DNA from: a virus
Direction: 5' to 3' (one strand)
DNA length: 36,038 bases
Virus record (IMG/VR): IMGVR_UViG_3300022698_000153
Location: 1 to 36,038 of that record
Made by a program: the position numbers and the translations under genes
Notes under the pieces: generated by a model
Told to the model about the DNA's origin: nothing
Seen by the model: the letters and a program-made list of their open reading frames with translations, nothing else
Databases searched by the model: none
Shown here: piece after piece, positions 4,892 through 28,953 of the stretch
Layout: each line of letters starts with the position of its first letter
How positions within the stretch are numbered: the stretch's first letter is position 1

Positions 4892-5102
4892 CCTCTATCA
4901 TCCCCACCCACATTTTACCGACTTCAACCTCACCGATAGCCTGCAACACTTGTCGTCTTTCAGCGTCAAGCGTCTCGAAAGCGCTTAGCATCTCACTCAA
5001 TGGTTTTCCTATATAATCGATAAAAACTTGCTTGATATCCTCGTCAAGGCGGGTGTGTCTATCTATAAGCGATTGTTTATAGGCTCTAGTGGCGTCGTTC
5101 AT
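4884..5102 (-). CDS. Hypothetical early protein, coiled-coil, 72 aa
   Basis: The start is ATG 5102, overlapping the upstream stop (ATGA); two earlier in-frame ATGs (5111 and 5123) lie inside the upstream gene. The product (MNDATRAYKQSLIDRHTR ... AFETLDAERRQVLQAIGEVEVG) is mostly amphipathic helix with heptad-like spacing. Its 3' end overlaps the membrane-protein gene by eight bases. I do not recognise the family. Confidence 0.8.
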   Translation of the reverse strand: MNDATRAYKQSLIDRHTRLDEDIKQVFIDYIGKPLSEMLSAFETLDAERRQVLQAIGEVEVGKMWVGMIEDE

Positions 5103-5494
5103 TTTTTCCATAGCGTGCTCCACGAGTCTTTCTCTTTGCCGACTAACGACCTAACAGCACAAAAAAGGTGACACTTTTGACCGTTGACTTTTATCATTTC
5201 GCCTGCGGGGAAAACCTCCGCTAGAAAGTATTCCAGCGATTCTGCCGCGAACCTAAGTAGCTGCATGTAAGATTGACGGGTATAATAGATGCCATGCTTA
5301 TTTTCCGGCGAAAATTTTTTTCGTGCAACGTCCATGATTACTTGCGCCTTTGTCAGGGCGCCCACAGCGGCATTCGCTCGATTGAGCGCATGGAATTTTG
5401 GCCCCCCTAAATCTTTTTCACTAAGCCACTTTTCGAGCGAATGTGCCGCGATGGCCTCTAGGGTTTCCTGGAAAGTGCCGATGTCGTCGTTCAT
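5099..5494 (-). CDS. Hypothetical early protein, 131 aa
   Basis: ATG 5494 follows AGAGGACGAAAA and overlaps the upstream stop (ATGA); a longer reading frame to 5560 would run deep into the upstream gene. The product is helical, with an Ala-rich central region (NRANAAVGALTKAQVIMDVA), a stretch of aromatic residues (YYTRQSYMQLLRFAAESLEYFL) and a Cys/His-containing segment near the end (GQKCHLFCAVRSL). It has no recognised motif and is part of a chain of overlapping early genes. Confidence 0.8.
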   Translation of the reverse strand: MNDDIGTFQETLEAIAAHSLEKWLSEKDLGGPKFHALNRANAAVGALTKAQVIMDVARKKFSPENKHGIYYTRQSYMQLLRFAAESLEYFLAEVFPAGEMIKVNGQKCHLFCAVRSLVGKEKDSWSTLWKK

Positions 5495-5730
5495 TTTTCG
5501 TCCTCTACTTTTTCCATCAACCTCTTTAGATGCACCTTGAAAATCTCGCAAGCAATACAAGCATCATCCCTCGTGGTTTTTCGTATCGTCTTAAAAATTT
5601 GGCTGTTGGGTTCTTCTTGCTGAAACACTAAGTTACCGATGGTGCTTTCAACGTCGCGCCATGCTTCCAGGGTTGTTAGCCTGTTTGCGATGTTTATTAT
5701 CTCGTCGTGGTCGTGTGCGTCTGTATTCAT
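5491..5730 (-). CDS. Hypothetical early protein, 79 aa
   Basis: The start is ATG 5730, overlapping the stop of the upstream membrane protein (ATGA). The product opens with an acidic His-rich stretch (MNTDAHDHDEIINIANRL), then helices with a CIACEIF motif near residue 60 (DDACIACEIFKVHLKRLM). The CxxC pair could bind a metal or form a disulfide, but one pair alone is weak evidence. No family is recognised. Confidence 0.8.
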   Translation of the reverse strand: MNTDAHDHDEIINIANRLTTLEAWRDVESTIGNLVFQQEEPNSQIFKTIRKTTRDDACIACEIFKVHLKRLMEKVEDEK

Positions 5731-5966
5731 CTCTCGTTTTCCTGTTCCTCAAGAATTTCCTCAAGTGTCATTTTGCTTAGCCTTTTTGACTCTTTGTGCG
5801 AGGCCACGATAGCCACCAGGGAAATTATCGTATGTATGCTCAGGGCGATAACAAGCGTCGGTATTGGCGTTACCCACTCTTTGCCGATAATAAACGCAGT
5901 TGCGTAAACTGCGAAAGTGGGAAACGTCGTAGCGCGGCAGATTTTTATGATGGTTTTATACCGCAT
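5727..5966 (-). CDS. Two-helix membrane protein, paralogue of 4649-4891
   Basis: The 79-residue product has helices at residues about 14-28 (FPTFAVYATAFIIG) and 36-54 (TLVIALSIHTIISLVAIVA) and a charged tail SKMTLEEILEEQENER. Loop and tail match the protein at 4649-4891 (IIGKEWVTP versus IIQKEWATP; EILEEQEN shared exactly). The start at ATG 5966 has CCAGGA upstream. It probably sits in the inner membrane with both termini in the cytoplasm. Retention of two diverged copies suggests hetero-oligomerisation or different targets. Confidence 0.85.
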   Translation of the reverse strand: MRYKTIIKICRATTFPTFAVYATAFIIGKEWVTPIPTLVIALSIHTIISLVAIVASHKESKRLSKMTLEEILEEQENER

Positions 5967-5983
5967 GCTCGAATCCTGGATAA

Positions 5984-6229
5984 TTACGTGTCATTTTTTC
6001 GCAACTCCCCGCTCTCCCACAGTGCATCCGCTTGCTTTGCTAACTGTTCCACCAGTGAGCTAAAGTCATCGAAATGTTGCGAAAATTCTTCCAGGCTTTC
6101 ACAGTTTTCCAAAAGATTACACTTTAGCCCCTCCCAGAATCCGCAGATAAAATACGCTATCCTTTTTAGCTTGTGCAATTCTTCACTTGAAACGATCTCA
6201 GTCGTATCTATTGAAAATTTATCCGTCAT
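5984..6229 (-). CDS. Hypothetical early protein, 81 aa
   Basis: ATG 6229 is preceded by AGGTGG and overlaps the end of the 43-residue gene upstream. The acidic, helical product (KLKRIAYFICGFWEGLKCNL, then NCESLEEFSQHFDDFSSLVEQLAKQADALWES) has no membrane segment and no recognised motif. The long run of helix-forming residues in the C-terminal half suggests a small helical bundle or dimerisation domain. Confidence 0.8.
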   Translation of the reverse strand: MTDKFSIDTTEIVSSEELHKLKRIAYFICGFWEGLKCNLLENCESLEEFSQHFDDFSSLVEQLAKQADALWESGELRKNDT

Positions 6230-11309: not shown

Positions 11310-11561
11310 CTAGGCGCGGTAATTTTTTGGGAAAAAGTCGGGTCGAAGGTCGTGAGGTGTGAAAGTATTATTTGTGAGCGCGCATAATTTCGTGACCAGA
11401 GTCGGGCTGATCTGATGGATGCCACGCGCCCAATTTTTGATAGTTGAGCCTGATACGCCAATTAGCTCCCCAAGTTCGGTGTAGTTTTTTTCTGTTAGTG
11501 CCGTTGCCAGCAGGATTGCTCGCCGTTGGTTTGCGTACTTTGGATCGATTTGTCTACCCAT
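11310..11561 (-). CDS. YdaS/Cro-like helix-turn-helix regulator
   Basis: ATG 11561 is chosen because GTGGAG lies at good spacing upstream; a GTG at 11576 is in frame. The 83-residue product has a helix-turn-helix at residues about 23-42 (YTELGELIGVSGSTIKNWAR) and ends with TFTPHDLRPDFFPKNYR, the 'xxTPxxLRPDxF' ending typical of the YdaS/Cro-like family. Such proteins are single-domain DNA-binding repressors found beside early phage promoters. The gene ends three bases before the strong leftward promoter, so it could bind operators there or near 11614-11630. No YdaT-like partner is seen. Confidence 0.85.
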   Translation of the reverse strand: MGRQIDPKYANQRRAILLATALTEKNYTELGELIGVSGSTIKNWARGIHQISPTLVTKLCALTNNTFTPHDLRPDFFPKNYRA

Positions 11562-11613
11562 ATTGGTTATCTCCACGGTAAAACCATAGGATACACCAAT
11601 GGATAGATGAAGT

Positions 11614-12505: not shown

Positions 12506-12758
12506 CCCATCCAGCGTATTTTTTTATTCGTGCGCCAATTGCGCGTCGCATCTGACCCCCCACACATTTTGTCATCTACGTGACCCAGACACCTCAAACG
12601 AGGGTTGCAACTTGTCTAGTGGGTTATGCACGGGGGGGAGATTTGATACTAAGCATTGTAGAGGGGCGCGATCTTGGGGGCAACATGGGTTCCATTTCGG
12701 AACGCAAGGTGGTCGGAATTACCGACGTACTGAACTTGACGAAAGCACAACGCGCTGA
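12477..12758 (+). CDS. Doubtful rightward frame, 93 aa
   Basis: A good ribosome site (AAGGAACGAG) precedes ATG 12477, and the stop overlaps the next ATG as TGATG, both normal signs of a gene here. Against it, the product (YSCANCASHLTPHTFCHLRD ... GARSWGQHGFHFGTQGG) has a composition unlike its neighbours (Cys, His, Gly and Arg rich, with no hydrophobic core pattern), the start codon coincides with a leftward -10 element, and the frame covers two DNA dyads (12689-12726) and a G7 run. I list it as possible; the stretch may be mainly regulatory DNA. Confidence 0.35.
   Translation: MLNKPPFQVNPSSVFFYSCANCASHLTPHTFCHLRDPDTSNEGCNLSSGLCTGGRFDTKHCRGARSWGQHGFHFGTQGGRNYRRTELDESTTR
12689..12726. promoter_or_regulatory. 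Two equal 15-bp dyads, operator candidates
   Basis: GTTCC-ATTTC-GGAAC (12689-12703) and GTCGG-AATTA-CCGAC (12712-12726) each have 5-bp arms and a 5-base spacer, and their starts are 23 bases apart. They lie just upstream of the 12758 frame. Such paired dyads are typical of repressor-binding sites, though the arm sequences differ. Confidence 0.45.
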
Positions 12759-12949
12759 TGATTCAAAAAATTTATCCAAATGGTGCTGATAGTGAAGAAA
12801 CTTCAGTATCGAAGGTAAACAAACTTCAGGTTGATACTGAAGAAACTGCGGTATCGATGCCTAACAAACTTCAGGTTGATACTGAAGAAACTCAAGCTTC
12901 CTTATATATAGAAGAGAATACAACAGAGATTACAACAGAGGAACGGTAA
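12758..12949 (+). CDS. Repeat-containing acidic protein, 63 aa
   Basis: The start at ATG 12758 overlaps the upstream stop (TGATG); no separate ribosome site is evident. The product consists of a short N-terminus, 15-residue repeats (DSEETSVSKVNKLQV, DTEETAVSMPNKLQV, DTEETQAS) and an ending NTTEITTEER. Short variable repeats followed by TTEITTE endings are familiar from the linker and tail of winged-helix phage replication proteins, so this may be the remnant of such a gene whose DNA-binding domain is gone. The underlying DNA repeats contain perfect palindromes and may matter more than the peptide. Confidence 0.5.
   Translation: MIQKIYPNGADSEETSVSKVNKLQVDTEETAVSMPNKLQVDTEETQASLYIEENTTEITTEER
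12788..12892. repeat. 45-bp tandem repeats carrying 19-bp palindromes
   Basis: Units start at 12788, 12833 and 12878 (the last is partial). Each junction contains CTTCAGGTTGATACTGAAG, a dyad with 6-bp arms CTTCAG and CTGAAG and a 7-base spacer (12824-12842 and 12869-12887). A related TGAAG-AAA-CTTCA lies at 12793-12805. The period is a multiple of three, so peptide and DNA are both conserved. Confidence 0.8.
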
Positions 12950-12950
12950 A

Positions 12951-13415
12951 ATGTATGAGCCAACTATATTTGACCCTCAGAAAGCCGCCGACGCGCTAAT
13001 GTTTTTTCGCTCAAAGCGGCGCTTTTTAGTGTGTCTTAGCACGTTCGATAGATTATTTCCGCATATGTCGTGTTATTCATGTGGTCGATTTCACAGTGAT
13101 TTCACCCGCGTTTCACCGAGAGAGCTGGCGAGTTTGGCGAAGATAAAAGAGCCTACCTACATTGCGTACGTACACGAGCTTATTTTGGGCGGCTACCTAC
13201 TGCATTATTGGTCAGGTGGAAAATCCTACTTTTCGATTACGGAGAAAGCATTGTGGGCCATGAAATTCGAAGAATTTTTGATATTGAGCTTCCCCGGTCG
13301 AGTTGAGAAGCTTGGGCCGATGTGTGAAAAGCTTTTGCGGATAGAGTCAGAGGTATTAGATGCAATTGCTAGGGGTGAGGACAATTTATATGCGATTCAC
13401 AAGCTAATCAGGTAA
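12951..13415 (+). CDS. Winged-helix candidate protein with CxxC
   Basis: The 154-residue protein starts at ATG 12951 after GAGGAACGG. Residues about 46-95 look like a winged helix: a helix-turn-helix (VSPRELASLAKIKEPTYIAY, then VHELILGGYLLHYW) followed by a short beta wing (GGKSYFSITEKALWAM). A CYSCGRFH segment precedes it and could hold a zinc ion with nearby residues. The C-terminal part is helical. It is the first convincing gene of the rightward early block, so a role in replication control or gene regulation is plausible, but no named family is recognised. Confidence 0.75.
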   Translation: MYEPTIFDPQKAADALMFFRSKRRFLVCLSTFDRLFPHMSCYSCGRFHSDFTRVSPRELASLAKIKEPTYIAYVHELILGGYLLHYWSGGKSYFSITEKALWAMKFEEFLILSFPGRVEKLGPMCEKLLRIESEVLDAIARGEDNLYAIHKLIR

Positions 13416-13500: not shown

Positions 13501-14382
13501 ATGAAAGCATTAGCTACTATCGTCGAAGGACTAGACGTATCAACAGCCAAGGAAATTGCGGGCAAAAAAAATCCCGCCAGCACGCGGGATTTTCAAAGTA
13601 CTAAACAAAGCTTGCTAAAACTAAGTTCAGTAACGAAGCTTACAGACTTGTTTAATGTAATGCAAGATATTTTGCGTACAGAACAGCGTGAAATGAAATC
13701 GGACTTTCGATCAGCGGAAAAAGCCGCGACATGTCCCTACGTCACCAAGTCCGCCCAACAAATAAAGCGGTATCGAATTTGGATGCTGAGCGATGAAGTT
13801 AAGTTACTTACAGCACGTAAACACAATTACGGTGGCAGAAAAGGTAATCGACTTTATCGGCAATCTACTGATGAGCTTCGTCACATCATGGAAAATAGCT
13901 GGGCATATGCACACCTACACAGGCGAGGACTAGAAGCTACGCAGCGCGTCATTGACTGGATAGAAGAACACCTACAAGACGAAATACAGCGATATAACGA
14001 CGGTCTCATAACGTTTGGAAAATTGGCCGGAATGGTGCCAAAACGCATACGGCCGCCTGTACAAAAAATAGACAGTGGCACGAAAATGACCCAAGCAAAA
14101 CCACGAAAACGACCCGAGCAAAACCACGAAAATGAACCGAGCAAAGCCACGAAAACGACCCAGTATCTTAGTACTATCCTTAAGCCATCAATAACACATC
14201 CTGTTGTTGGTTTTTTTGTGTGTGGAAAACAAGAAGACAACCCCCCCCAATACCACCGGACTTCCGAAAAGAAGATCGACAAAACGTTGGGCGAGGGATA
14301 TGAGATCTACAAGAAATCCATCAAGGGGCTTAAAAGACTAAATGGCGGTAAAAATGTTCAGTATTCACACCAAAACGCTTAA
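13501..14382 (+). CDS. Probable replication initiator containing iterons
   Basis: The 293-residue basic protein starts at ATG 13501 after TTAAGGAAAAAATC. No helicase, primase or polymerase motif is present, and I do not recognise the family by sequence. The N-terminal 190 residues are helical and basic (REMKSDFRSAEKAATCPYVT, HNYGGRKGNRLYRQSTDELR). Residues 193-221 are a Lys/Pro/Thr linker encoded by three and a half 23-bp DNA repeats that change reading frame at each copy, so they are conserved as DNA. Iterons inside the initiator gene are the arrangement of lambda O and its origin. A perfect terminator-like hairpin sits in codons 23-31. The initiator role is inferred from this layout. Confidence 0.7.
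   Translation: MKALATIVEGLDVSTAKEIAGKKNPASTRDFQSTKQSLLKLSSVTKLTDLFNVMQDILRTEQREMKSDFRSAEKAATCPYVTKSAQQIKRYRIWMLSDEVKLLTARKHNYGGRKGNRLYRQSTDELRHIMENSWAYAHLHRRGLEATQRVIDWIEEHLQDEIQRYNDGLITFGKLAGMVPKRIRPPVQKIDSGTKMTQAKPRKRPEQNHENEPSKATKTTQYLSTILKPSITHPVVGFFVCGKQEDNPPQYHRTSEKKIDKTLGEGYEIYKKSIKGLKRLNGGKNVQYSHQNA
13568..13593. terminator. Intrinsic terminator hairpin inside the initiator gene
   Basis: AAAATCCCGC (13568-13577), CAGCAC loop, GCGGGATTTT (13584-13593): a perfect 10-bp stem with A-tract and T-tract, preceded by further A residues, and so potentially active in both directions. It begins 67 bases after the start codon of the initiator gene, so most rightward transcripts could end there unless translation or antitermination prevents it. 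Confidence 0.75.
14079..14162. repeat. 23-bp iterons, candidate replication origin
   Basis: Units start at 14079, 14102 and 14125, with a partial fourth at 14148. The consensus is CACGAAAAyGAmCCrAGCAA followed by Ar C. The period is not a multiple of three, so each copy is read in a different frame and gives a different peptide (TKMTQAKP, RKRPEQNH, ENEPSKAT). Selection must act on the DNA. A T-rich stretch follows (14205-14220). Confidence 0.85.
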
Positions 14383-14758
14383 AAGCTTTGGTACTTTGCA
14401 AGACGAAGCGATACGCATCGCTGAAACGGCCGGATTGGACGCACAGCAGGCGATCGAAGCAAAGCGCATATATGACAACATGAAAAAAAACGGCAGTATA
14501 AAAAGCCCCCTAGGGGCCTGGAAATGGGCGTGTGAGAAAGCAGGAGCCAAACCGCTGCCGAGAGCAGAAAAAGTGGCTAATTCGCCCACCTTGCAGCGCG
14601 ACTATAGCGCCGTGAGGGGATGTGTCTATCACGAGACGCACTCCCCAAAACCGACGCTGCTAGAGCTTGCACGCGAGCAAATAGAGCAATACGGCTTTAC
14701 GGTCTACAATGGCAGACGAGTAACTAAGATTGAAGAATTAAAAATCAATCGCGATTGA
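14342..14758 (+). CDS. Hypothetical protein downstream of the initiator
   Basis: The protein has 138 residues, with a start at ATG 14342 that overlaps the initiator gene by 41 bases. ATG 14354, with GGCGG upstream, is an alternative start. The N-terminal third is helical (TLQDEAIRIAETAGLDAQQA, IEAKRIYDNMKKNGSIKSPL), followed by AWKWACEKAGAKP and a C-terminal segment EQYGFTVYNGRRVTKIEELK that looks like a strand-turn-helix. The position right after the initiator is that of helicase loaders in lambda-like phages, but there is no AAA+ motif and it is too short for one. Function is unknown. Confidence 0.75.
   Translation: MAVKMFSIHTKTLKSFGTLQDEAIRIAETAGLDAQQAIEAKRIYDNMKKNGSIKSPLGAWKWACEKAGAKPLPRAEKVANSPTLQRDYSAVRGCVYHETHSPKPTLLELAREQIEQYGFTVYNGRRVTKIEELKINRD
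14510..14529 (-). terminator. Antisense terminator-like hairpin
   Basis: On the minus strand, AGGCCCC-UAG-GGGGCUU is followed by UUUAUA: a 7-bp stem (one G-U pair) and U-tract inside the 14342-14758 gene. It would stop leftward antisense transcription. The three-base loop is tight. Confidence 0.35.
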
Positions 14759-15902: not shown

Positions 15903-16066
15903 ATTTTTATTTTTGGGATTGTGTTTTTTTCGCCGCACGAAGTCTTGTTGAGCCAGACGAAAAGTTAGTGGATTGGGGCTTGCATGATTATGGGGCCTTT
16001 ATCTATGCGACTGTTAAGAAAAAAGACGGTTCGCAAGAAAAACGCTTTTTACCTAACGATTATTGA
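15887..16066 (+). CDS. Small hypothetical protein, 59 aa
   Basis: ATG 15887 overlaps the previous gene by 16 bases. The product (MFGKINFYFWDCVFFAARSL, VEPDEKLVDWGLHDYGAFIY, ATVKKKDGSQEKRFLPNDY) is rich in aromatics, with strand-like alternation in its second half. There is no strong ribosome site, so translation may depend on the upstream gene. The frame is open across the whole interval between two supported genes, which is the main evidence. Confidence 0.55.
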   Translation: MFGKINFYFWDCVFFAARSLVEPDEKLVDWGLHDYGAFIYATVKKKDGSQEKRFLPNDY

Positions 16067-16079
16067 AGGACCAAAAAAC

Positions 16080-16289
16080 ATGGATGTTTTAACAGCTCTA
16101 CAAGAGGACGTCGAGCTTGAACTACGCAATGATCTACATTGGGGCGTGTGCCCTTTTTGCGCTCCTGACCGCGCTACACTGGTTGTATCGCCTATTTCGG
16201 ATTCTTGGCGCTGCTTCGGCTGCAACAAAGGTGGCGACTGGCTCGAATGGATGCGCTGGAAAAATGAGAAGTCGCAAGCCAAAAAGTGA
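16080..16289 (+). CDS. Stand-alone DnaG-type zinc-ribbon protein
   Basis: ATG 16080 follows GAAGGA at good spacing, so the longer in-frame extension to 15984 is rejected. The 69-residue product carries CPFC (C24, C27) and, 18 residues on, DSWRCFGCNKGGDWLEWM (C45, C48). This spacing and the 'W/Y-x-C-F-G-C-x-x-G-G/D-W' ending match the zinc-binding domain of DnaG-type primases (CHC2 type). No polymerase or Toprim domain follows. A free zinc domain could recruit host primase, bind single strands or act as an inhibitor. It overlaps the VRR-NUC gene by 26 bases. Confidence 0.8.
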   Translation: MDVLTALQEDVELELRNDLHWGVCPFCAPDRATLVVSPISDSWRCFGCNKGGDWLEWMRWKNEKSQAKK

Positions 16290-16623
16290 AGAAAGCGAAC
16301 AAATTACACTCGTAAAGTGGTTTCGTCTTGCTCATCCGAAGATAAAAAACCTACTTTTTCACGTGCCCAACGGCGCGGCTACCGCAGCCCGTGGCGCAAA
16401 GCTTAAAAAGATGGGTGTTGTTGCGGGCGTGCCGGACTTGATACTATGCGTCACTACCAAAAAATACCCCGGACTTTTTCTTGAGTTGAAAAAAGAAAAG
16501 ACGGGGGTAGTCAGTGAAGCACAGCATAGGATGCACAAGCTATTAAAAAAACAAGGCTACAAGTGCGTTGTGTGTTTTGGCTTTGACGAAGCCAAGCAAG
16601 CGATTGAAGACTATTTAGCGTAA
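16264..16623 (+). CDS. VRR-NUC domain nuclease
   Basis: ATG 16264 is chosen because the conserved domain starts shortly afterwards and an upstream extension to 16117 would lie inside the previous gene. The 119-residue product is a complete VRR-NUC fold: EESEQITLVKWFRLAHP (residues 9-25), LLFHVPNGAATAARGAKLKK, GVPDLIL (D58), LFLELKKEKTGVVSEAQ (E74, K76, Q87). These are the PD-(D/E)XK catalytic residues. Stand-alone phage VRR-NUC proteins are thought to cut branched or specific DNA structures, and could resolve replication or recombination intermediates before packaging. There is no other resolvase in the genome. Confidence 0.93.
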   Translation: MRSRKPKSEESEQITLVKWFRLAHPKIKNLLFHVPNGAATAARGAKLKKMGVVAGVPDLILCVTTKKYPGLFLELKKEKTGVVSEAQHRMHKLLKKQGYKCVVCFGFDEAKQAIEDYLA

Positions 16624-21585: not shown

Positions 21586-23892
21586 ATGGCACGGAAAGCA
21601 GAAGACAAAATTAAGAAAATCCGCGAAAAAATTGTGAAGTGGCGCACGTATTTTCGGCGTAACATCGAGCACTATCATGCGATGACTGAGTTTGTTCAGG
21701 GCGCGCAATGGACAGACAACGAGCGCGAAACGCTGACAAAAACGCTCGGTAAAACACCGATGCAGTTTAATATGCTCGGCGTATTGTCTCGTACATTGCT
21801 CGGCGAGCAGCAACAAAACACGCCGCAACTCGAAGTTGTGCCTACGGGCAATTGCGATGAAGGCACAGCACGAATTCGCGAAGTCGTCGTAAAAGATTTG
21901 ATGCTACGCGACGAAACGAAAAAAGTGTATCAAAAATCAGCGCGTCAAGGTGTCGATGGCGGATTTGGTGCGTTTTATCTCTACACCGAATACGCTCACA
22001 CAAAATCATTTGATCTTGACATTGTCTATCATTACTTGCATGACCCGACACTAGCGTATTGGGACGTTGGCGCTAAGGAAGATAACAAGATAGACGGTAT
22101 GCACGCTGGCTTTTGTGTGCGTGTTTCACGTGAGCAATTTCGCGCGGAGTATGGGCGAAAAGTTGAAAAAGATATTCTCAATGAGGGCGTAGGACAAAAA
22201 ACAGAAAACGTCATCAAGACAACCGTACCTGGCCAAAACTCCGAGGATTTTGTGTGGGCTGACGATGATGGAATAACAGTGTTGCATCATTTTCAGCGCA
22301 CGATGACCTCAGATACATTATATAAGTTGTCTAACGGTCAAGTCGTTGACCAAGCCGAACTTGACGAAATCATCGAACAGTCAAAAGAGCGCGTGCAGAA
22401 GCAGCAAATGCAACAGCTTGACGAGCTTGCAAGCATGATTCAAAACGAGATGACGCCACAAGGGGGCGTTGATGAATTTGGCGTAGCGCAAGACATGTCG
22501 CAAGAGTCTATGCAAGATATGTTGCCGGTCGAGACTGAAAACGAATACGACATGCCAGAAGATGAAGGCATGTTGACAGACGAAAGCGTTGACATTGATG
22601 ACGATTTTTTAACGCTCTATGTCGATAAAGAAGCCGTGAGAATCGAGGATAAGCGCGAAATTAAGCGATCAAAAATCACACACACGAAATGTGCGGGCTA
22701 TTACGTGCTCGATGAAGCGGAATTTCCATCCGAAGATTTGCCTGTTATTTTTCTTGATCACGACTCGTGGTATGACAAAGACGGTAAGCAAGTGTGTCGG
22801 TCGTTCGTGGAAGACGCGAAAGACGCGCAAATTTATCGTAACTATTTGGGCACGCAGGCGGCATATATTCTTAAAAATTCAAGATGGGATCAATGGATCG
22901 GATCGAAGAAAAACGTAGCATCAAACGACACGCAGAAAATTTGGAAAAACCCGCAGAACATGCAAGGCATGCTTGTCTACGATGAATCGCCAAATGGGAA
23001 CAAGCCCGAGCAAATACGGGCGGCTGAACTTCCGGCGAGCTTGATAAGCCAGTATCAACGCGCGACAGATGACATTTACACGACAACGGGCCTTTATCCA
23101 TCTCGCCTTGGCGATCAAGGAAACGAGGTATCAGGTAAGGCAATTGATGCACGCACGCAGCAAGGTAGCTACGCAACTTATTTGACGTTCAGCGCGATCA
23201 ACAACGCTATTGCAGCCGGCGGAAAAATACTCAATCAGATGATACCCCGCGTATACGATGCTGAGCGAATTATGACGCTGATGACACCCGACAAGGGGAG
23301 ACAAACAATCACAGTCAACACATATGACGAGTACGGCGCAAAAATCGAAAACGATTTGCGCAAGGGTGAATTCCAAGTCAAGTTGTTACCTGGACCTTCA
23401 TGGGAAGGCCAAAAGCAACAGGCGCTAGACTCTTTGACAATGATCGTGCAGGCCAACCCGTCGCTATTCCCGATGTTCGCGGATTTAATCGCCGAAAACT
23501 TGCCGCTTCCGAACACCATAGAAATCAAGAACCGGCTAAAAACTCTCGTACCAAAAGAAGTGCTACAGGCTGGCGAATCGGGAGAAATGCCGGAAAAAGC
23601 ACACCAGCCGAGCGCGCAAGACCAAGCAGCCGCAGCAGCAGCGGAAGCAAAGCGCGAAGAAATCCAAATCAAAAAACAAGAGCTAGCATTCAAGATGCAA
23701 GATGAGCAGTCGAAAAATGAAATTAAAAAAATGGAGATGGAATATCAACGCTTAGAAGCGGCTGAAAAACTTGAAGTTGAAAAGCTAAAATATCTTGCTG
23801 AAACGGACAGAACGCAAAGCGATAACGCAATAGCGCACGCGGACAATATTACTAAGATACTAACGTCAGGCTTAACAAAGAGGGAAGTATGA
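21586..23892 (+). CDS. Portal protein (P22-like)
   Basis: The protein has 768 residues (P22 gp1 has 725). The start at ATG 21586 follows GAGGATTTAAAA. Portal-like features include an N-terminal basic helix (KWRTYFRRNIEHYHAMTEFV, then GAQWTDNERETL), QFNMLGVLSRTLLGEQQQN, the central wing domain and a C-terminal long coiled coil (about 680-760, rich in KREE, IKKQELAFKMQ, EMEYQRLEAAEKLEVEKL) that would form the barrel reaching into the capsid, as in P22. An acidic Met/Gln-rich insertion (about residues 268-345) probably lies on the outside. Twelve copies form the DNA channel. Confidence 0.93.
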   Translation: MARKAEDKIKKIREKIVKWRTYFRRNIEHYHAMTEFVQGAQWTDNERETLTKTLGKTPMQFNMLGVLSRTLLGEQQQNTPQLEVVPTGNCDEGTARIREVVVKDLMLRDETKKVYQKSARQGVDGGFGAFYLYTEYAHTKSFDLDIVYHYLHDPTLAYWDVGAKEDNKIDGMHAGFCVRVSREQFRAEYGRKVEKDILNEGVGQKTENVIKTTVPGQNSEDFVWADDDGITVLHHFQRTMTSDTLYKLSNGQVVDQAELDEIIEQSKERVQKQQMQQLDELASMIQNEMTPQGGVDEFGVAQDMSQESMQDMLPVETENEYDMPEDEGMLTDESVDIDDDFLTLYVDKEAVRIEDKREIKRSKITHTKCAGYYVLDEAEFPSEDLPVIFLDHDSWYDKDGKQVCRSFVEDAKDAQIYRNYLGTQAAYILKNSRWDQWIGSKKNVASNDTQKIWKNPQNMQGMLVYDESPNGNKPEQIRAAELPASLISQYQRATDDIYTTTGLYPSRLGDQGNEVSGKAIDARTQQGSYATYLTFSAINNAIAAGGKILNQMIPRVYDAERIMTLMTPDKGRQTITVNTYDEYGAKIENDLRKGEFQVKLLPGPSWEGQKQQALDSLTMIVQANPSLFPMFADLIAENLPLPNTIEIKNRLKTLVPKEVLQAGESGEMPEKAHQPSAQDQAAAAAAEAKREEIQIKKQELAFKMQDEQSKNEIKKMEMEYQRLEAAEKLEVEKLKYLAETDRTQSDNAIAHADNITKILTSGLTKREV

Positions 23893-24785
23893 ACGAGCCA
23901 CATAACTTAGATGATGCTTTACTGAATCAAGGTGCAGCGCAAGCTACGCGACAAGCAAGTGATGAAACAGAGAGCCACGAAAACGGACCGAGCGCAGAAG
24001 ATGAGGCGGTCACCCAAGAAGATCACTATTCGCCTGAGGATAACGGCGATCAAGCGAGCGATGAAGAAACGCAAGAAAGCAACGACGAATCAGAAAGTGA
24101 GGAGCAACTCGACGATTACGGCAATGAACGCGGTCAAACGCAGTCAAAAACGTACACAGAGGATGAAGTAAAACAGCGCGTCAATGAAGCGGTGCGCGAC
24201 AGACTTGCACGACTTGAAAGAAATCAAGGTCAACAGCAATCAGGGCAACCGAAAAACCAGCAGCAGCAAGCGGAAGGGCAAGAGGATTGGCGGCAACAAC
24301 TTACACAGATTATTGAGCAAACAGTAAGCGGTATGGGTGAGCGTCAAGCACAGCAACAACGACAAGTCATGGAACAACAAGCGCAAGCGGAATATGAAAG
24401 CAAATTTTATTCTGGGGCTAAACGATTCAGCGATTTTGTTGAAGTGGTCGGTAATCAACCCATCACTGATGCAATGACCTATGCGACCCGCGGACTAAAA
24501 GACCCCGCAGCTTTTTTATATGCAGCAGCTAAGCGCGAGGCAAAAGAGCTTGAACGCATTTCAAGGATTCCCGATCAATACACACAAGCGTTAGAAATTG
24601 GACGACTAGAGGCACGCATGAGAACACAAAAACCCACAACTAAATCACCCAAGCCTGTACCGCAAACACGCGGTGATGTGACAGGCAAACCAAAACAAAA
24701 AAGTCCAGGTAAACGCGGCGATGATTTGCTTGCACAGTCCAACGCGCAGCGTATGCAAAACTTGCGAAATCGCCGAGGAAGATAG
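23889..24785 (+). CDS. Scaffold protein
   Basis: The protein has 298 residues (P22 gp8 has 303), lies between portal and coat genes as in P22, and overlaps the portal stop (ATGA). The composition is that of a scaffold: an acidic, disordered N-terminal third (ETESHENGPSAEDEAVTQED), a Gln-rich helical middle (GQQQSGQPKNQQQQAEGQED, ERQAQQQRQVMEQQAQAEY) and a basic C-terminal coat-binding tail (KPTTKSPKPVPQTRGDVTGK, QRMQNLRNRRGR). It directs coat assembly and leaves the prohead. There is no protease motif. Confidence 0.9.
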   Translation: MNEPHNLDDALLNQGAAQATRQASDETESHENGPSAEDEAVTQEDHYSPEDNGDQASDEETQESNDESESEEQLDDYGNERGQTQSKTYTEDEVKQRVNEAVRDRLARLERNQGQQQSGQPKNQQQQAEGQEDWRQQLTQIIEQTVSGMGERQAQQQRQVMEQQAQAEYESKFYSGAKRFSDFVEVVGNQPITDAMTYATRGLKDPAAFLYAAAKREAKELERISRIPDQYTQALEIGRLEARMRTQKPTTKSPKPVPQTRGDVTGKPKQKSPGKRGDDLLAQSNAQRMQNLRNRRGR

Positions 24786-27187: not shown

Positions 27188-28953
27188 TGCCGACAGAACC
27201 GTTAGACATATTCGCTCACTATGACAAACAGCGTTTTACGCAGTTTGGGAGTCGTGACGCTGCGAATTGGTACAAAGTAGCTGTAGGCAGCGGTAAAAAA
27301 CAAACGGCGCTTTACCCTTCTATGGGGCGTTCACATATCAATTTTTTTGGGCAAAATCGTCTGATTTTTGAAGGTGAACCCAAGGCCATTTTTGCGAGCC
27401 TTGACTTTTTATATGTGATTGTTGGTACTACGGTTATACAAGTTGACAAATTTTGGAACGAAAAAAAAATAGGCACTGTACCGCTCGGCAGTGAAGTATG
27501 GTTTGCCTATTTGCCCGTGGGCACGATTACTTATTGCATCCTAACCGCCGAAACGGTGATGTATGCAATTACCGAGAATGGTAACACGGTCAGTTATGAT
27601 GAAATAACCGACCCCAACGCACCTACGCGCCCTCAATATGTAGCTGCTTTTGGTAATCGGTTTGTTGTATCGCAACAAGGTACACCGGATTATTACTTGT
27701 CACAGGTCAATCTAGGCGGCTCCGTGCTTAATGCTGCCACGGCATTTACGGTCAATAGTGCGCCCCTGTTTAACCGCGCATCGGGCGTGATTAAGCAATT
27801 CGCTGTGCTGCATAATCAGCTCTATATTTTTTCGGCATACACGATCGACCCTTGGTCCAATATTCCATCATTTTTTACGGTAGCGGGTGTAACCACGGAA
27901 TTTCCGTGGAAGCTGAACGCTTCGTATAACTTTGACTATGGCTTGGTAGACCCCAAATCCTTAGATGTCGCGTTTGGCATGATGGCGTGGCTAGGCCAAA
28001 ACCGAAAGGGTCAAGTCAGTGTGTTTGTATCTAATGGCGGCCAACCTTCTGAGATTTCAACAGACGCGGTGGACGTTATCATAGCAGATTCTGCGCAAGC
28101 CGAACCCAACGAATATTTCTTATCTGGCAATACGAATGGTTTTTTCTACGAGTATGAAAACACCATTTTTTATCGAATTTCGGCAGGTGATTACAAAAAC
28201 TTTGGCAATCTCGACAATACCGAGGATGCTAATTGTTTAGAATTTAACTTTGACACGCAAACCTGGTCACGCGCGATTGAGCTAAACGGCGAACGTAACC
28301 GTGCAGTAAAACACGCTTATTTCAACGATGTGCAATTGGTTACGGTGCAAGATGACCCCGTAGTTTATGAGTTTTCGGGTCATTTTTATTACAACGAGCT
28401 GCGCAATGAAAGCGCCGAATCTCAAGCCGCTGATGCTTTTTTGCGGTTTCCAATGCGTTATACGCTAGTAACCGATCACATCTATGAGCCGGATTATTCC
28501 GAGTTCATCACCGACTATGTAGAAATAGACTTTGTGTTTGGTAATCAGACGTTCTATAAAAATAACGCGCCATTTAATAACACAGAATTTTTAGTCGCCG
28601 AGGATGAGGTTAACGGCGAGCCGGTTTATTTGACTGCCGAGGATGAGATCAACGGGGAGCCGGTCTTTTTCACGGCCGAGGGAAGTAACACCCCACAATT
28701 CGATGACAATCACTATAACGCGCTTTTCAAGCCACACATTGAGCTTTACTGGTCGGATGATGGCGGCGTGAGCTTTCACACGGCCGATTTGCGCGAGTTT
28801 TCGCCGCTTGGACAGTATCGCTGGCGCATGAAATGGTGGGAACTGGGCGCATCACGTAACCGCGTTTATAAGCTCGTGGCGGTCAGCTCAGCGCCGATTG
28901 TGATATTGGGCGCTACGCAGATGCGCAGGCGTGCAAGCGGAGGGGCGAACTGA
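27187..28953 (+). CDS. Tail hub / DNA stabilisation protein, P22 gp10-like
   Basis: The protein has 588 residues (P22 gp10 has 472). The start at ATG 27187 overlaps the previous stop (TAATG). The beta-propeller-like pattern of gp10 is visible: ALYPSMGRSHINFFGQNRLI, ASLDFLYVIVGTTVIQVDKF, RPQYVAAFGNRFVVSQQGTP, DPKSLDVAFGMMAWLGQN. It forms the tail hub below the adaptor and carries the receptor-binding proteins. Residues 471-496 hold a 13-residue tandem repeat (AEDEVNGEPVYLT, AEDEINGEPVFFT), part of an insertion that may explain the extra length. Confidence 0.88.
   Translation: MPTEPLDIFAHYDKQRFTQFGSRDAANWYKVAVGSGKKQTALYPSMGRSHINFFGQNRLIFEGEPKAIFASLDFLYVIVGTTVIQVDKFWNEKKIGTVPLGSEVWFAYLPVGTITYCILTAETVMYAITENGNTVSYDEITDPNAPTRPQYVAAFGNRFVVSQQGTPDYYLSQVNLGGSVLNAATAFTVNSAPLFNRASGVIKQFAVLHNQLYIFSAYTIDPWSNIPSFFTVAGVTTEFPWKLNASYNFDYGLVDPKSLDVAFGMMAWLGQNRKGQVSVFVSNGGQPSEISTDAVDVIIADSAQAEPNEYFLSGNTNGFFYEYENTIFYRISAGDYKNFGNLDNTEDANCLEFNFDTQTWSRAIELNGERNRAVKHAYFNDVQLVTVQDDPVVYEFSGHFYYNELRNESAESQAADAFLRFPMRYTLVTDHIYEPDYSEFITDYVEIDFVFGNQTFYKNNAPFNNTEFLVAEDEVNGEPVYLTAEDEINGEPVFFTAEGSNTPQFDDNHYNALFKPHIELYWSDDGGVSFHTADLREFSPLGQYRWRMKWWELGASRNRVYKLVAVSSAPIVILGATQMRRRASGGAN
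28597..28674 (+). repeat. 39-bp tandem repeat in the tail-hub gene
   Basis: Two adjacent 39-base units (28597-28635, 28636-28674) encode AEDEVNGEPVYLT and AEDEINGEPVFFT, with a trace of a third unit (AEG) after them. The copies differ at synonymous and conservative positions, so the duplication is not recent and the peptide is under selection. Confidence 0.85.

Follow-up and report, generated by a model that had tools for sequence, protein, structure and literature searches.

A 23-bp repeat array within an orphan early gene of a putatively P22-like phage: a candidate embedded replication origin

Does a tandem array of 23-bp repeats, lying inside an early phage gene, mark a replication origin carried within the gene of its own initiator? 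The array occurs in a 36,038-bp stretch of DNA (IMG/VR virus record IMGVR_UViG_3300022698_000153, in full; hereafter the window), and the systems with which it invites comparison are the lambdoid origins, in which gene O carries at its middle initiator-binding iterons and an AT-rich region (PMC7466680). We give an even chance to the reading that a lambda-style origin of the window lies within its own candidate initiator gene, the ORF at 13501–14382. The repeats, the ORF, its map position and the phase slippage of the copies are observed; that the encoded protein binds the iterons and starts replication, and that the following gene has a part in this, we infer.

The phage and its early region

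The virion genes (portal and coat proteins among them), the podoviruses that are its nearest annotated relatives and the gene order suggest that the phage is P22-like. The terminase is closest to those of IMG/VR contigs, at 71–75% identity, and is about 45% identical to those of Vibrio phage 1.182.O and Pseudoalteromonas phage H6/1. A repressor-like HTH gene with matches to the YdaS and phrog_35 families occupies the minus strand at 11310–11576, which puts the control region leftward, as in P22; RecE/RecT lie to its left, and the rightward early genes begin after it. P22 runs c2 repressor, cro, c1, the O-like gene 18 with its internal origin, and gene 12. ORF 13501–14382 matches P22 in lying between the repressor and the late genes and in overlapping the gene downstream. 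Two records related through their virion genes, L010 and L011, have an O-like/DnaD-like gene in the early region upstream of terminase. Because the early regions of P22 and of these two relatives hold initiator genes there, ORF 13501–14382 stands at the initiator's place. The initiator-like gene of L010 is on the opposite strand and contains 18-bp repeats, in frame; that of L011 has 23-bp repeats 72 bp apart. The L010 terminase large-subunit ORF (L010:8405–11053, 882 codons) has an insert that looks intein-like by eye, with a homing-endonuclease-like part.

No initiator, helicase or loader family was recognised among the other scanned ORFs of the window. The sole primase piece among them is a lone DnaG-type CHC2 zinc finger of 101 codons at 15984–16289, which is without a primase body and overlaps a VRR-NUC nuclease gene at 16117–16623. 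Matches to DnaA boxes were loose and formed no cluster. The first-pass annotation had suggested looking for a GC-skew change at 14.1 kb; the turn is instead near 11–13 kb, at the same place as the change of coding strand, and skew, being confounded with gene direction, gave no clear origin signal.

The 23-bp array and the gene that contains it

The candidate initiator ORF (13501–14382, plus strand) has 293 codons, and AAGGAAAAAATCATG would plausibly serve as its ribosome site. Codon usage supports its frame throughout, across the array and on to the end of the ORF, with no hint of a frameshift into the ORF at 14342. The iterons, CACGAAAAYGAMCCRAGCAAARC, were recovered at 14079–14162 on the plus strand by TRF (period 23, 3.7 copies, 86% matches, score 126), by self-match and by a pattern scan, in agreement with the three complete repeats and partial fourth originally described. 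The copies begin at 14079, 14102, 14125 and 14148, the last being cut to 14 bases, and one unit spans roughly two turns of the helix, as iterons do. Periodic self-match within the ORF peaked at a score of 39; none of 200 codon shuffles went above 12. A degenerate pattern of the unit, allowing up to 3 mismatches, found three sites in the array and one at 23975–23996, where shuffles expect none. The latter, an iteron-like site that differs from the unit at 3 of 22 positions (0 expected in 100 shuffles), stands alone inside a virion gene at 23889–24785, beside the portal gene. At the same threshold there were no comparable copies at the early-region promoters, and the exact pattern had no match in viral contigs. 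The 14.1-kb units show no dyad symmetry, and single-strand folding of the array gave nothing beyond shuffles.

The array covers codons 193–221, a part of the gene that is probably linker-encoding. The codon phases of its four copies are 2, 1, 0 and 2, so the encoded peptides differ between copies, just as had been noted. Is the conservation, then, at the DNA level only, as the first-pass annotation held? For the identity of the unit this is a reasonable reading. It does not hold without qualification, however, since the unit must also stay stop-free whichever of the three frames is read. Copies 1 and 3 have T at base 9, where copy 2 has C; only in the frame of copy 2 would that T give TGA. Coding therefore still constrains the unit.

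Nor are frame-breaking repeats as remarkable as they had been made out to be. The annotated iterons of lambda O are spaced by 20, 24 and 23 bp and lie in phases 0, 2, 2 and 1; spacings are 19 and 35 in D3 orf73, 20, 21 and 21 in phi80, and 32 and 28 bp in L032, an O-like IMG/VR relative. Iterons out of frame are ordinary in the O genes of lambda, D3 and L032. Because the iterons of these three break frame and lambdoid origins lie within O, DNA-level selection within coding sequence is the rule for embedded origins. In L032 three palindromic iterons (GGTGCATGTGGTGCACC) lie out of frame in the O-like gene, at L032:1622–1708, a clear lambda-type embedded origin. Elsewhere, phage ctHz2215 (L021) carries a 24/48-bp unit repeated in tandem about 21 times at L021:5464–5980, within a hypothetical gene (4968–6137, phrog_15773).

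The protein is basic, as first described (53 K+R and 32 D+E, pI 9.9), and its separateness from O and from known initiators was borne out in every family tested. No match was found in Pfam, NCBIfam, the PDB, phage records or viral contigs; none to the O-like families (phrog_345, 186, 270 and 391) or to an HTH N-terminus; and none to DnaD-like or Rep families. A profile built from the N-termini of eight O-type phage initiators did not detect it, Pfam gave no Rep_3/RepA-type domain, and tblastn against plasmids gave chance-level matches only. Its sole match is to phrog_38057, of unknown function, and is weak (E 1e-4, residues 23–111). We found no relatives of the protein in 34 related records, and a portal search for nearer relatives gave none; an 18-residue match in Lederbergia, from one genome-collection scan, was taken as chance. 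Structure prediction, which had been proposed as a check, yielded two AlphaFold models of low confidence (pLDDT 40 and 54) whose secondary structures disagree. By eye, residues 76–120 (PYVTKSAQQIKRYRIWMLSDEVKLLTARKHNYGGRKGNRLYRQ) might form the latter half of a winged helix; the models disagree there.

The 14163–14222 stretch that follows the iterons is moderately AT-rich (65% AT, against 56% for the gene) and is a possible unwinding element. Its AT content of 0.65 is comparable to that of the post-iteron DNA of phi80, D3 and L032 and below that of lambda and P22, and it is no richer in AT than other parts of the region; no strong unwinding element was seen. A plus-strand ORF of 138 codons (14342–14758), recognised by its codon usage, overlaps the end of the candidate initiator gene by 41 bp and holds the position of gene P or a helicase gene. 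It is an orphan, with no relatives in family profiles, viral contigs, phage records or the 34 related records. In the proposed mechanism the 13501–14382 product, or an oligomer of it, would bind the 23-bp iterons in the linker-encoding part of its gene, the complex would open the adjacent AT-rich DNA, and host factors, or else the protein encoded by the overlapping 14342–14758 gene, would load the helicase.

A second array and the rival explanations

A second array, which the first-pass annotation did not mention, lies about 1.2 kb upstream of the 14.1-kb iterons. No tandem repeat in the window is stronger than this one, which TRF places at 12787–12892 (a 45-bp unit in 2.4 copies, score 163). 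TRF also reads it as a weak 23-bp period, and it resolves into half-units of about 22–23 bp in alternating orientation (CTTCAG/CTGAAG), with near-perfect dyads within the units, GATAGTGAAGAAACTTCAGTATC. The dyads were reached in 19 of 300 and 28 of 300 codon shuffles, a tail of about 6–9%. The 12893–12952 tract right after the array is 67% AT. The array is carried in frame by a 63-codon ORF on the plus strand (12758–12949), which is supported by codon usage, has no match in viral contigs or phage records, and encodes after the array a peptide, SLYIEENTTEITTEER, that by eye resembles the post-iteron peptides of lambda and P22. By eye the ORF looks like an O-type linker piece without the HTH part, perhaps a remnant. 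Directly downstream is a 154-codon plus-strand ORF (12951–13415), winged-helix-like by eye, with no family match and no relatives in viral contigs; its product is an alternative DNA-binding protein for either array.

With its dyadic units and AT-rich tract, the second array looks at least as lambda-like as the one at 14.1 kb. It could represent the actual origin, one part of a two-part origin, or what is left of an O-type gene since replaced. It is unlikely, in our estimate, that the origin is or was at 12787–12892, with the array and the 63-codon ORF being the iteron and linker part of an O-type gene whose DNA-binding N-terminus is gone; on this view the repeats at 14.1 kb would be unrelated or a second site. 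The rank of the repeat in the window, dyads like those of lambda, P22, D3 and L032, the adjoining AT-rich tract with its lambda- and P22-like peptide, and a 45-bp unit that stays in frame as do the repeats of L010 and L025 all speak for it; the dyads, however, are just moderately unusual against codon shuffles, the ORF has no database match, and no HTH part was recognised nearby. We judge it equally improbable that the 14.1-kb repeats arose by slippage or duplication in a linker under little constraint and have no function as DNA. Linkers tolerate repeats, ORF 13501–14382 is an orphan gene, and a virion gene of this phage has an in-frame 39-bp repeat at 28597–28681 (a AEDEINGEPVYFT-type peptide repeat). 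Yet the 14.1-kb copies hold length and register while differing at 4 of 23 positions, and another array is close by in the presumed replication region.

Iteron arrays in plasmids are also used for copy control, and the 14.1-kb array does lie within an early gene. That it is a regulatory protein-binding site of operator or copy-control type, rather than a start site, is nonetheless the least probable of these explanations: the early promoters have no comparable copies, and the sole other site, at 23975, is in a virion gene.

The embedded origin in 13501–14382 is backed by a significant array, by map position and by the lack of a recognised initiator family among the other ORFs scanned. Against it stand the orphan protein, the location of the iterons at 66–75% of the gene, their non-dyadic units, the rival array at 12.8 kb, and the absence of a strong unwinding element and of a clear skew signal. 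More doubtful is the further proposal that the 13501–14382 product founds a new initiator family among phages, one whose sequence is related to none of O, DnaD and Rep; that it acts on the non-dyadic 23-bp iterons in the 3' third of the gene encoding it; and that it took the place of an O-type initiator whose iteron remnant is at 12.8 kb. We hold this to be only slightly less improbable than an origin at 12787–12892. The embedded origin, if real, would add an unrecognised initiator to the lambda-type plan of an origin within the initiator gene, would suggest that a swap of the protein leaves this plan in place or sees it re-invented, and would make 13501–14382 a small self-contained replicon.

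Comparison with known origins

The initiator gene contains the origin in lambda (O), P22 (gene 18, with an annotated rep_origin inside) and phi80 (gene 15, within which binding sites are annotated). How far does the resemblance to lambda go? It stands for map position and for embedded-iteron architecture: in both, iterons some 20–24 bp apart lie in the coding sequence of a gene at the initiator position, the copies are in different codon phases, and the downstream gene overlaps. It fails for the units themselves, which in lambda, P22, D3 and L032 are dyadic by inspection, and for their location, which is at 34–51% of the gene in the five O genes compared. The lambda iterons occupy 39–48% of the gene, and the tract that follows them reaches 80% AT; the 13501–14382 protein has no sequence similarity to O.

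P22 is alike in the order of genes around repressor and initiator, in the annotated origin within gene 18 and in virion class. It differs in that its units are dyadic (ACC..GGT), gene 18 is O-like and the DnaB-like gene 12 follows, for which no counterpart was recognised here. The units at 14.1 kb, strictly head-to-tail, non-dyadic and about two turns long, resemble those of iteron plasmids, in which direct repeats of about 20 bp are bound by Rep. Plasmid iterons, though, usually lie outside rep, and the 13501–14382 protein has no match to a Rep family. The layout is one already known; the initiator would be new.
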